From positions 310,001-374,000 of the forward strand of contig NZ_JAUHHC010000003.1 in NCBI RefSeq assembly GCF_030410485.1: a stretch of 64,000 nt of DNA. Direction: 5' to 3'. This document shows, piece by piece, positions 33,011 to 37,304 of this stretch (position 1 is the stretch's first letter; every line of letters begins with the position of its first letter). The position numbers and the translations under genes are program-made. This DNA comes from Roseateles violae. Lineage in GTDB: Bacteria; Pseudomonadota; Gammaproteobacteria; Burkholderiales; Burkholderiaceae_C. Below the pieces are notes generated by a model. It saw only the letters and a program-made list of their open reading frames with translations. It made no database searches and was not told the origin of the DNA.

Positions 33011-36000
33011 ATGCTCCCGAAAAGAAAGCTGCTCTGGTATCTGGCCCAAAGCCTGGGCCTGACGCTCGCCTATATCGCCTTCGGCGTGCTGGGCCTGCGG
33101 CTGGCGGTGCCGCCCAGCTATGCCTCGCCGCTTTACCCGGCCGCCGGCCTGGCGCTGGCGGCGCTGCTGAGCCTGGGCCTGCGCTACTTCCCGGCCGTGC
33201 TGCTGGGCTCGCTGGTCGTCAACATGCTGCTCAGCATCGAGCGCGGCCAGCCGGCCTTGCTCGCGCCGGCGCTGATCGGCGTCGGTGCCGCGCTGCAGGC
33301 GCTGTTCGGCGCCTGGGCCGTGCGGCGCTGGGTGTCGCAGCCGCTGCTGCTGACCGAGCCGCGCGACCTGGCCAAGTTCTTCGCGCTGGGCGCCGGCCTG
33401 GCCTGCCTGATCAACCCGACCATCGCCTGCCTGACCCTGCGGGCGACCGGCGCCCTGACGGCCGAGCAGTTCCTCGGCAACTGGCTGTCCTGGTGGCTGG
33501 GCGACGCCATGGGCGTGCTGATCGCGGCGCCAATGGTGCTGACCTTGCTCGGCCGGCCGCGCAAGGCCTGGGCGCCGCGGCGGCTGAGCGTCGGCCTGCC
33601 CATGCTGCTGACCATCGTGTTGATGGCGCTGGGCACGCTGGCGGTGGCCGAATGGGACGCGCAGCGCGCGCGCGCCAATTTCGAGCGCGAGGCGCTCAAT
33701 GCCGGCAACGCGATGGAAGGCCTGCTGCGCGAACCGCTGATGGCGCTGGAGGCCAGCCGCGGCCTGCTGCTGGTCGCGCCGCATCTGAGCCGGAGCGATT
33801 TCGAGCGCGGCACGGCCAGCTATCTGGCGCCGGACAGCGCGCTGCGGGCGATCGGCGTCGCGCGCCGGGTGGCGCGCCAGGCGTTGCCGGCCTTCGATGC
33901 GGCCGCGCGCGCCGAGGGCCTGGCCGACTTCAAAGCCCGCGACCGCCGCCGGCCCGGCGATGTCGAGCCGCCCGCCGGCGAGGACATGCTGGCGATCCGG
34001 CTGATCGAGCCGCTGGCGCGCAATGCCGGCGCGCTGGGCGTGAACATCCGCTCGGTGCCGGTCGCGCGCAGCGCCCTGGCCCAGGCCCTGCAGAACGGCC
34101 GCCCGGCCGCGACGGCCGGCTTCCAGCTGTCGCAGGACAGCGAGGAGGCCACCGGCGTCGTCGTCTACCAGGCCTTCTACGAGGGCCAGCCGCGCGATGC
34201 CGACGAGCGCGCACGCGCGCTGGCCGGCGTCGTCTTCACCACCCTGCGGCCCGATCAGCTGCTGGCCCGGATCGCGCTGCCGGCCGGTCTGCGGCTGTGC
34301 CTGGTCGACCGCGATCCGCTGGCGCAGCGCCCGCGCCTGGCCGGACCGACCGGCTGCGAGCTCGCGACCGCCCAGCCCGGCGACACGCAGCGCCGGCGCC
34401 CGGTGCAGTTCGGCGGCCGCGACTGGGACATCCGCGTCTACGCGAGCAGCGGCCTGCGCATGGACCAGTCGCGCAGCTGGCCCTTCGCGCTGGTGGGCCT
34501 GGTCTGCACCGGCCTGCTGGGCGTGCTGCTGCTGGTCGTCACCGGGCGGGCGCGCCGCATCGAGGACCAGGTGCGCGCCCGCACCGCCGAGCTCAAGCGC
34601 GAGATCGCAGAGCGCGAGCAGGCGGCGCAGGCCCTGCGCGAGAGCGAGCTGCGCTTCCGCAATATCTTCGACAACGCACCGGTCGGCGTGATCTTCACCG
34701 ACGTCTACGGCGGCATCAAAGAGGTCAATCCGCAGTTCTGCCGCCTGATCGGCCTGCCGGCCGAGACCTTGCAGCAGATGCGCACCTTCGACATCACGCA
34801 TCCGGACGACCAAGCCGAGGACACGCGGCTGGCGATGCTGCTGATGCGCGGCCGCATCGGCGTCTACCACCGCCACAAGCGCTACCGCACGCCCGATGGC
34901 CGTGAGCTGCAGGTGCGCGCGGTCGTCTCGCTGCTGCGCGGCAGCGACGGCCGGCCGCACCGGCTGGTCGGCGTCGTCGAGGACATCGCCGACCAGCTGA
35001 AGATGCAGCAGCTGGCGCAGGCGGCCGAGCAGGCCGAGGCGGCCAACCGGGCCAAGAACGAGTTCCTGTCGCGCATGAGCCATGAGCTGCGCACGCCGCT
35101 GAACGCGATGCTGGGCTTCACCCAGCTGCTCGAGATGGACGCCGGCGAACGGCTCAGCCCGCGTCAGCGCAGCCGCACCGCGCAGATCCAGCAGGCCGGC
35201 TGGCATCTGCTGGAGATGATCAACGACACCCTGGACCTGTCGCGCATCGAATCCGGCGCGCTGCGCCTGGAGCCGACCCGGCTGAACCTGGCCGCGCTGC
35301 TGGACGAGGCGGCCGCGCTGATCGAGGGCGATGCGCGCGCGCGCCGGCTGACGCTGACCCGCGCGCTGGGCGGGCAGGCCCGCTTTGCCCATGGCGACGC
35401 GACCCGGGTCAAGCAGGTGCTGACCAATCTGCTCAGCAATGCGGTCAAGTACAACGTCGAGGGCGGCAGCATCACGGTCGAGAGCCACCGCCCGGCCGAC
35501 GCGCCCAACTGCGTGGAGATCAGCGTCAGCGACACCGGCCTCGGCCTCGATGCCGAGCAACTCGGCGCGCTCTTCCAGCCCTTCAACCGGCTCGGCCGCG
35601 AGCACAGCGAGACGGCCGGCACCGGCATCGGCCTGGTGATCAGCAAGCGCCTGGCCGAGCTGATGGGCGGCGAGCTGCGCGCCAGCAGCGTGGCGGGCCG
35701 CGGCTCCAGTTTCGTCCTGCGCCTGCCGGCGGCCGAGGCCGCCGCCGCACCGCAGCCGGTCGCCGCCGCCGACAGCGCGCCGGCCTTTGCCGGCCGGCGC
35801 CGCGTCGTCTACATCGAGGACAACGCGATGAATGCCGAGGTCATGCGTGGCATCCTCGAGCAGCGGCCGCAGATCGAACTGGAAGTTCACACCAGCGGCC
35901 TGGCCGGCCTGCAGGCGGTCCTGGCCGAGCCGCCGGACCTGCTGCTGCTGGACATGCAGCTGCCCGATCTGGACGGGCTGGCGGTGCTGAAGCGGCTGCG

Positions 36001-36172
36001 CGCGGTGCTGTCCGAGGCGGCGCTGCCGGTCGTCGTGGTCTCGGCCAATGCGCTGCCGGACCAGGTGCAGGCCTGCCGGGCCGCCGGCGTGCAGCACTAT
36101 CTGACCAAGCCGGTCGATATGCGCGAGCTGCTGCGCCTGCTGGACCGGCTGCTGGAAGCGCAAGGAGCCTGA
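33011..36172 (+). CDS. MASE1-CHASE-PAS hybrid histidine kinase
   Basis: A 1053-residue hybrid sensor kinase. MASE1 membrane domain about 10-210 (seven or eight helices); extracytoplasmic CHASE-like domain about 220-480; transmembrane helix 492-511; short coiled coil; PAS/PAC about 545-665; HisKA with phospho-His691 in SRMSHELRTPLNAM; HATPase with N box LLSNAVKYN (807-815), DTGLGLD and GTGIGL; receiver domain about 930-1045 with phospho-Asp981 (LLLLDMQLPD) and Lys1033. No DNA-binding or enzymatic output is attached and no response regulator is adjacent, so the phosphate acceptor is unknown. Confidence 0.94.
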   Translation: MLPKRKLLWYLAQSLGLTLAYIAFGVLGLRLAVPPSYASPLYPAAGLALAALLSLGLRYFPAVLLGSLVVNMLLSIERGQPALLAPALIGVGAALQALFGAWAVRRWVSQPLLLTEPRDLAKFFALGAGLACLINPTIACLTLRATGALTAEQFLGNWLSWWLGDAMGVLIAAPMVLTLLGRPRKAWAPRRLSVGLPMLLTIVLMALGTLAVAEWDAQRARANFEREALNAGNAMEGLLREPLMALEASRGLLLVAPHLSRSDFERGTASYLAPDSALRAIGVARRVARQALPAFDAAARAEGLADFKARDRRRPGDVEPPAGEDMLAIRLIEPLARNAGALGVNIRSVPVARSALAQALQNGRPAATAGFQLSQDSEEATGVVVYQAFYEGQPRDADERARALAGVVFTTLRPDQLLARIALPAGLRLCLVDRDPLAQRPRLAGPTGCELATAQPGDTQRRRPVQFGGRDWDIRVYASSGLRMDQSRSWPFALVGLVCTGLLGVLLLVVTGRARRIEDQVRARTAELKREIAEREQAAQALRESELRFRNIFDNAPVGVIFTDVYGGIKEVNPQFCRLIGLPAETLQQMRTFDITHPDDQAEDTRLAMLLMRGRIGVYHRHKRYRTPDGRELQVRAVVSLLRGSDGRPHRLVGVVEDIADQLKMQQLAQAAEQAEAANRAKNEFLSRMSHELRTPLNAMLGFTQLLEMDAGERLSPRQRSRTAQIQQAGWHLLEMINDTLDLSRIESGALRLEPTRLNLAALLDEAAALIEGDARARRLTLTRALGGQARFAHGDATRVKQVLTNLLSNAVKYNVEGGSITVESHRPADAPNCVEISVSDTGLGLDAEQLGALFQPFNRLGREHSETAGTGIGLVISKRLAELMGGELRASSVAGRGSSFVLRLPAAEAAAAPQPVAAADSAPAFAGRRRVVYIEDNAMNAEVMRGILEQRPQIELEVHTSGLAGLQAVLAEPPDLLLLDMQLPDLDGLAVLKRLRAVLSEAALPVVVVSANALPDQVQACRAAGVQHYLTKPVDMRELLRLLDRLLEAQGA

Positions 36173-36259
36173 GCAGCAGCCGGCCCGGCCCAATAAAGTT
36201 AGCAAGCGCTTCTCTCTAAAGCATTACACAGCCTTGCTTCGTCAAATAGCCCTCGGCGC

Positions 36260-36286
36260 TTAGCACTCTTGTCCAGGGAGTGCTAA
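36260..36286. promoter_or_regulatory. CIRCE element (HrcA operator) upstream of rpoH
   Basis: A perfect inverted repeat TTAGCACTC-N9-GAGTGCTAA, identical to the CIRCE consensus bound by the heat-shock repressor HrcA. It lies 50 bp before the rpoH start and overlaps the likely promoter hexamers, a position suited to repression. Seen directly; HrcA binding is inferred from the consensus. Confidence 0.93.
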
Positions 36287-36289
36287 TAT
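36260..36289 (+). promoter_or_regulatory. Candidate rpoH promoter overlapped by CIRCE
   Basis: TTAGCA (36260-36265) as -35 and TAATAT (36284-36289) as -10 with an 18-base spacer. TG one base before the -10 makes it an extended -10. The hexamers fall inside the two arms of the CIRCE repeat. Confidence 0.55.
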
Positions 36290-36300
36290 TCATCTCCATG

Positions 36301-36316
36301 GAACCCGCAAGGGTTC
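36301..36316 (+). promoter_or_regulatory. 5'-UTR hairpin before rpoH
   Basis: GAACCC-GCAA-GGGTTC: a 6-bp perfect stem closed by a GNRA tetraloop, ending 19 bases before the rpoH start codon and just upstream of the purine-rich GAAAGAAAG ribosome-binding region. A role in translation control is possible but unproven. Confidence 0.55.
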
Positions 36317-36335
36317 GGTTCTGCGAAAGAAAGTG

Positions 36336-37256
36336 ATGACGATGTCGACCTCTGCTTCTTTGACGGTACGCGACCCCTGGTCGCTGGTGCCGTCCTTGGG
36401 GAATCTGGACGCCTACATCTCGGCCGTCAATCGCCTGCCGCTGCTCAGCGCCGAGGAAGAGAACGCCTCGGCCCGCAAGCTGCGCGACAGCGGCGATCTG
36501 GAATCGGCCGGAAAGCTGGTGCTCTCGCACCTGCGCCTGGTCGTGTCGATCTCGCGCCAGTACCTCGGCTACGGCCTGCCCCAGGGCGACCTGATCCAGG
36601 AAGGCAATGTCGGCCTGATGAAGGCCGTCAAGCGCTTCGACCCAGACCAGGGCGTGCGCCTGGTCAGCTATGCGATGCACTGGATCAAGGCCGAGATCCA
36701 CGAGTACATCCTGCGCAACTGGCGCATGGTCAAGGTCGCGACGACCAAGGCCCAGCGCAAGCTGTTCTTCAATCTGCGCTCGATGAAGCACAGCATGAAG
36801 GAGGCGGCAAGCGACGACATGACGCACCGCGCCAGCCTGACCGAGGCGCAGCTGGATCATGTGGCGACGACCTTGAACGTCAAGCGCGAGGAGGTGCTCG
36901 AGATGGAGACGCGCCTCTCGGGCGGTGACGTCGCGCTGGAGCCGCAGACCGATGACGACGGCGACAGCTACACGCCGATCGCCTATCTGGCCGACGAGAC
37001 CCAGGAGCCGACCCGCGTGCTCGAATCGCAGGCGCGCGACGCGCTGGCCGGCGACGGCATCCAGCGCGCGCTGGAAGCGCTGGACCCGCGCAGCCGCCGC
37101 ATCGTCGAGGAGCGCTGGCTGAAGGTCAACGACGACAGCTCGGGCGGCATGACCTTGCACGAACTGGCGGCCGAATACGGCGTGTCGGCCGAGCGCATCC
37201 GCCAGATCGAGGTCGCGGCGATGAAGAAGATGAAGAAGGCCCTGACGGCGGACTGA
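36336..37256 (+). CDS. rpoH: RNA polymerase sigma-32 factor RpoH
   Basis: A 306-residue heat-shock sigma factor. The RpoH box QRKLFFNLR (140-148) distinguishes it from other group 3 sigmas. Region 2 shows HLRLVVSISRQYLGYGLPQGDLIQEGNVGLMKAVKRFDP, and region 4 ends with a helix-turn-helix (LHELAAEYGVSAERIRQIE). Several start codons stand in a row (GTG 36333, ATG 36336, ATG 36342); the first ATG is used. Transcription appears to be under HrcA control through the CIRCE site, and a terminator follows. Confidence 0.97.
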   Translation: MTMSTSASLTVRDPWSLVPSLGNLDAYISAVNRLPLLSAEEENASARKLRDSGDLESAGKLVLSHLRLVVSISRQYLGYGLPQGDLIQEGNVGLMKAVKRFDPDQGVRLVSYAMHWIKAEIHEYILRNWRMVKVATTKAQRKLFFNLRSMKHSMKEAASDDMTHRASLTEAQLDHVATTLNVKREEVLEMETRLSGGDVALEPQTDDDGDSYTPIAYLADETQEPTRVLESQARDALAGDGIQRALEALDPRSRRIVEERWLKVNDDSSGGMTLHELAAEYGVSAERIRQIEVAAMKKMKKALTAD

Positions 37257-37280: not shown

Positions 37281-37304
37281 AACGGCCCCGCGGGGCCGTT
37301 TTTC
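37281..37304. terminator. Bidirectional rho-independent terminator
   Basis: Palindrome AACGGCCCCG CGGGGCCGTT followed by TTTC on the plus strand, with A-rich sequence on the other side. It lies between convergent rpoH and the sco gene and can end both transcripts. Confidence 0.9.

Follow-up and report, generated by a model that had tools for sequence, protein, structure and literature searches.

A perfect CIRCE operator upstream of rpoH in Roseateles violae overlaps a candidate sigma70 promoter and co-occurs with hrcA among its relatives

Introduction

The textbook picture of heat-shock control in proteobacteria comes from Escherichia coli, which lacks the repressor HrcA and in which rpoH, the gene of the heat-shock sigma factor sigma32, is induced mostly at the level of translation and of protein stability. 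In the 64,000-nucleotide stretch of the Roseateles violae genome analyzed here (the window), rpoH is directly preceded by a CIRCE, the inverted repeat bound by HrcA. This raises the question of whether the sigma factor gene is itself repressed by HrcA, as an earlier note on this DNA had proposed, and which promoters such an operator would cover.

Results

The operator and the rpoH gene

The following features of the locus were delineated.

36260..36286, no strand assigned: CIRCE operator, an inverted repeat matching the HrcA-binding consensus without mismatch, from the sequence and a mismatch search
36260..36265, plus strand: -35-like hexamer TTAGCA of the candidate sigma70 promoter, in the CIRCE left arm, with an 18-bp spacer to the -10
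36269..36277, no strand assigned: CIRCE 9-bp spacer TTGTCCAGG, with no matching sigmaE -35 upstream here
36281..36289, plus strand: putative extended -10 TGCTAATAT, with TGC and TAA from the CIRCE right arm and TAT after the arm
36296..36297, plus strand: predicted sigma70 transcription start, 3' of the operator, from promoter geometry (6-7 nt past the -10)
36336..37256, plus strand: rpoH, sigma32, starting at ATG 36336 (ATG 36342 is also possible)
37282..37303, plus strand: candidate intrinsic terminator of rpoH, ACGGCCCC-GC-GGGGCCGT followed by a T run, read by eye from the sequence

Positions 36260-36286 form the exact CIRCE TTAGCACTC-TTGTCCAGG-GAGTGCTAA, with 0 mismatches to the consensus TTAGCACTC-N9-GAGTGCTAA. 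The full string, TTAGCACTCTTGTCCAGGGAGTGCTAA, is the sole match at ≤3 mismatches within the window, and 100 dinucleotide shuffles of the window contained no match even at 3 mismatches, which rules out a chance palindrome (0 expected). The exact match claimed by the earlier note thus stands, while the end that it had placed at 36289 moves to 36286, the extra TAT belonging to the -10.

The open reading frame downstream of CIRCE encodes RpoH, as established by the curated equivalog model NCBIfam TIGR02392 (391 bits for a cut-off of 323). Its ATG lies 49 bp downstream of CIRCE, in a gap of 163 bp between genes. The preceding gene, which encodes a sensor kinase and ends at 36172, is read in the same direction as rpoH; a divergent target is therefore ruled out and rpoH is the only gene served by this CIRCE. 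In the corresponding place E. coli carries ftsX (window positions 33011-36335 compared), so that the operator stays with rpoH despite a different neighbor.

A hairpin with a GNRA-type loop, GAACCC-GCAA-GGGTTC, occupies 36301-36316, just past the predicted transcription start; it has no counterpart among the relatives' leaders that were read. Folding of the rpoH 5' region was no better than that of shuffled sequences (z -0.42 in a crude test). An RNA thermosensor or leader hairpin is thus not indicated.

HrcA and CIRCE in the genome

The 5.2-Mb genome, complete by marker genes, harbors a single hrcA, adjoining nadK. Its product is full length (TIGR00331 equivalog, 310 bits for a cut-off of 197) and related to the solved HrcA structure 1stz. 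A missing hrcA, with which the earlier note's proposal would have fallen, is therefore ruled out. The genome-wide search for CIRCE (≤3 mismatches) returned two sites, at rpoH and, with 1 mismatch, at groES (locus L002); at this threshold hrcA itself and all other loci in the genome are devoid of CIRCE. An operon of the RpoE-rseA-mucD type is also encoded, its RpoE scoring 234 bits for a cut-off of 236 and its neighbors being read from sequence only.

Just 3' of hrcA (L003, 1100-1370, minus strand) lies a tRNA-Ile(CAU)-like gene whose anticodon loop is interrupted by an insert of about 200 nt that looks like a group I intron; this split gene was reported neither by ARAGORN nor by Rfam at the gathering threshold.

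A candidate sigma70 promoter within the operator

The hexamers TTAGCA and TGC-TAATAT, separated by 18 bp, would form a weak sigma70 promoter (8/12 matches plus the extended TG), and a consensus scanner called none. The earlier note had located both the -35 and the extended -10 inside the CIRCE arms. This holds for TTAGCA and the TG, but the right arm covers only half of the -10 hexamer: the TAT at 36287-36289, which provides the last three bases of TAATAT (36284-36289), directly follows the arm.

Alignment of rpoH sites on their CIRCE showed that NAT after the operator is kept in 227/277, by which the right arm GAGTGCTAA becomes an extended -10, TGCTAA-NAT. In the left arm, TTAGCA or TTGGCA serves as a -35-like hexamer at 18-bp spacing. 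TTGGCA, nearer to TTGACA, was found in 76/276 rpoH sites versus 0/27 of the groES sites sampled, a contrast that is weak alone, as a few listed groE sites also have TTGG. Unlike those at rpoH, the groES operators are mostly followed by C-A-A, and a sigma32-type promoter, CTTGAAA...CCCTATNA, lies directly upstream of the groES CIRCE. As the NAT suffix is conserved at rpoH and not at groES, we infer an extended -10 sigma70 promoter embedded in the rpoH operator and specific to rpoH.

Conservation and loss of the operator with hrcA

Among 80 related rpoH loci gathered by protein similarity, 76 were reported on, and all 76 displayed a CIRCE (≤2 mismatches) at a distance of 28-66 bp upstream of the rpoH match. 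The survey of rpoH upstream regions in Burkholderiales that the earlier note had suggested covered 150 genomes from 50 GTDB families. CIRCE was present in 134 of these genomes, typically as exactly two copies, and hrcA in 136, including G083, whose hrcA is a fragment interrupted by a stop. Genomes of this sample without intact hrcA have no CIRCE anywhere at ≤2 mismatches. With a threshold of ≤4 mismatches, CIRCE was found at rpoH in 132/132 regions from genomes with intact hrcA versus 0/14 regions from those without (Fisher, 8e-20), counts that are not phylogenetically independent; best matches in the 14 hrcA-negative regions were at shuffle level. In the class outside Burkholderiales, the corresponding figures, to which the same dependence applies, were 66/70 with hrcA versus 1/10 without (Fisher, 3e-8), the exceptions being four hrcA genomes without the site and one apparently hrcA-less genome with it. 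The latter, G230, has a near-perfect CIRCE before rpoH (L344) and no hrcA was found in it, which may reflect an assembly gap or a recent loss. The arrangement, about which the earlier note had asked for close relatives, is hence order- and class-wide.

The losses of hrcA extend over at least 7 GTDB families and, in some of these, sister genomes keep both the gene and the operator; co-loss therefore happened repeatedly. Several Burkholderiales families contain genomes in which hrcA and both CIRCEs are gone, as for the loci L189 (G018), L217 (G065), L222 (G107), L221 (G140), L228 (G040), L227 (G084), L229 (G039), L230 (G083), L218 (G043), L213 (G124), and L225 (G087).

A sigmaE-type promoter overlapping CIRCE in relatives

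A GGAACTT element (≤1 mismatch) was found within 30 bp upstream of CIRCE in 150/277 rpoH sites, versus about 8 expected. Of those 150, 127 have a TCNNA 16 or 17 bp downstream of it, and no other single spacing tested accounts for more than 7. In the commonest register (-16/-17), the left arm of CIRCE ends in the TC, and the A falls in the spacer. In the -14 and -12 registers, TCNNA lies entirely within the spacer, with the 16-bp distance kept; the stretch corresponding to TTGTCCAGG thus holds a sigmaE -10 in other lineages. Because the -35 and -10 shift register in lock-step, these elements constitute strong evidence that a sigmaE (ECF02) promoter, GGAACTT-N16-TCNNA, overlaps the operator in most lineages.

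The element can outlive the operator. In the hrcA-less G033, CIRCE is degenerate while GGAACTT-N16-TCATA and a TAAAAT -10 are intact, and in G112, also without hrcA, TGAACTT-N16-TCTTA persists after CIRCE decay. Upstream of rpoH in the latter (L175), the former CIRCE seems to have turned into another inverted repeat, GGCACTCTTATTAGAAGTGCC, with the sigmaE element kept. Persistence without hrcA was also observed in the wider class (G291, G293, and G295).

In the window, no GGAACTT-N16-TCNNA was found near CIRCE. The best upstream candidate has 3/7 matches, and the best match anywhere, the downstream GGAACCC-N16-GCGAA (7/10), is unremarkable compared with shuffles, so that a sigmaE promoter in the window itself is not supported and the model supported for this genome combines sigma70 and HrcA. 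The upstream element is missing from most loci of the window's clade, which comprises Roseateles-, Rubrivivax-, and Methylibium-like ones.

In 13 loci of a sister clade, a GGAAC-type -35 lies downstream of CIRCE, at a distance of 32-34 bp counted from the start of the operator, and a TC-type -10 comes about 16 bp later. An ATG follows this -10 by 5-7 nt in 12 of the 13 (L005, L007, L009, L011, L013-L016, L021, L025, L040, and L082). Loci with the downstream element mostly have no Shine-Dalgarno core before the first ATG. A leaderless, sigmaE-driven rpoH mRNA escaping HrcA is possible at these loci, which we regard as a lead and not as a result.

Discussion

The near-perfect co-occurrence of operator and repressor, together with their co-loss, supports direct repression of rpoH by HrcA. 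In our judgment the rpoH CIRCE is very probably a functional HrcA operator that represses the embedded sigma70 promoter and is released on stress. The central proposal of the earlier note, that rpoH is under HrcA control, is thus supported by the presence of hrcA and by these genomic patterns, from which the repression is inferred.

GroEL keeps HrcA active in other bacteria, and we assume the same for this genome. In the unstressed cell, GroEL-supported HrcA on CIRCE would block access of RNA polymerase to the sigma70 extended -10, and sigma32 would be low. Upon heat or misfolding, GroEL would be occupied or HrcA would unfold, freeing CIRCE and allowing rpoH transcription; RpoH would then drive the heat-shock regulon, including groESL, which would be freed from HrcA as well, until new GroEL restored HrcA and closed the loop. 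One heat-shock circuit would probably gate the other in this way. The same repressor and operator serve groESL and rpoH in this genome, with a difference of layout: the groES CIRCE follows a sigma32-type promoter and lies near the transcription start, while the rpoH CIRCE appears to enclose its sigma70 promoter. Since groESL keeps its own CIRCE, HrcA would act on groE both directly and through RpoH, and the hierarchy announced by the earlier note in place of parallel circuits gives way to a coherent feed-forward loop. In most related lineages, the operator would also cover the sigmaE-type promoter, whose -10 sits in the left arm or the spacer of CIRCE; through this overlap, HrcA would gate the envelope-stress input into rpoH as well.

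The reading most worth weighing against functional HrcA control of rpoH accepts that HrcA binds, and holds that it only trims the basal rpoH mRNA, sigma32 output being governed, as in E. coli, by translation and by a stability under chaperone control. The established biology of sigma32 in E. coli, whose control is mostly post-transcriptional, implies that transcriptional repression of rpoH may be a minor input, and lineages without hrcA keep rpoH and lose just CIRCE, which marks HrcA control as dispensable. However, retention of the operator in all 132 Burkholderiales rpoH regions with hrcA implies selection, and the shuffle-level fold of the window's rpoH 5' region indicates, in that crude test, no RNA thermosensor. 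We give this minor role a minority share of the probability, about that of a one-in-four outcome.

The other alternatives fare worse. For rpoH of the window to possess an additional sigmaE promoter moved downstream of CIRCE and escaping HrcA, as in some sister species, would be unlikely: the 13 sister-clade loci, 12 of them with the well-placed ATG, provide the precedent, but the best match here is shuffle-like and the start codon is off the predicted position. That the palindrome is kept mainly as promoter elements (sigma70 -35 and -10, sigmaE -10), with HrcA binding incidental, would account for the overlap of such elements with both CIRCE arms. We consider it very improbable, given that hrcA-less genomes have no CIRCE and that loss of hrcA is accompanied by decay of the palindrome, whereas GGAACTT-N16-TCNNA and TAAAAT can persist, as in G033 and G112. 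Slightly less credible still is a role of the inverted repeat at the RNA level, as a stem-loop of the rpoH leader that affects mRNA stability or acts as a thermosensor. Such a role has been proposed for some transcribed CIRCEs, the palindrome is perfect, and CIRCEs of other genes, such as groES in this genome, sit downstream of the promoter; against this, the predicted start 3' of the palindrome would leave it outside the sigma70 rpoH mRNA, and the leader folds no better than shuffles.

Parts of this architecture have precedents. A CIRCE upstream of rpoH was predicted in 2004 in Geobacter sulfurreducens (PMC545781), where the same perfect TTAGCACTC-N9-GAGTGCTAA lies at -51 from the rpoH start, with a profile taken from the Permina & Gelfand 2003 survey; in the accessible part of that paper, no overlapping promoter is described at this site. 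Geobacter differs in its hrcA-grpE-dnaK-dnaJ operon, which has a CIRCE, whereas hrcA of the window genome stands by nadK without one. In Bordetella bronchiseptica, SigE (ECF02) transcribes the fam (rpoH) promoter in vitro (PMC3490749, 2012), so that a sigmaE-type promoter lies directly upstream of a betaproteobacterial rpoH, as in most of the relatives' lineages; HrcA and CIRCE go unmentioned in that paper, and the window lacks the element at its usual position. Our sigmaE scoring also recovered the P3 promoter of E. coli rpoH (TGAACTT-N16-TCTGA, score 9), a genome that differs by a negative HrcA family search and by 8 mismatches in its best CIRCE within 250 bp upstream of rpoH. The sigmaE promoter at rpoH is already known in E. 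coli.

The openly readable literature yielded no paper on CIRCE at betaproteobacterial rpoH and no account of one operator over both promoters or of class-wide co-loss with hrcA; the older survey by Permina & Gelfand (2003; pmid 15153770), subscription papers, and RegPrecise lay outside this search. That survey reportedly covers the HrcA regulon of beta-, gamma-, and epsilon-proteobacteria, and may already list rpoH in betaproteobacteria. CIRCE at rpoH (Geobacter) and sigmaE at rpoH (E. coli, Bordetella) are thus known, and their combination is apparently undescribed in the literature searched.

We put at about even the chances of a wider scenario, in which the rpoH region ancestral to the class had one HrcA operator spanning two promoters, sigma70 in the right arm and sigmaE with its -10 in the left arm or spacer, making envelope-stress activation conditional on HrcA release. 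E. coli P3 would be the remnant after HrcA loss, and a move of the sigmaE promoter to the downstream side of the operator in one sister clade would yield a leaderless rpoH mRNA. Altogether, these genomic patterns, which predict raised rpoH and raised sigmaE-driven rpoH in hrcA mutants and offer an evolutionary reading of the sigmaE promoter at E. coli rpoH, suggest that sigma32 itself is under a GroEL-sensing HrcA in most beta- and many gammaproteobacteria, and that in most lineages the input of the envelope-stress sigma factor is laid over the same 40 bp.
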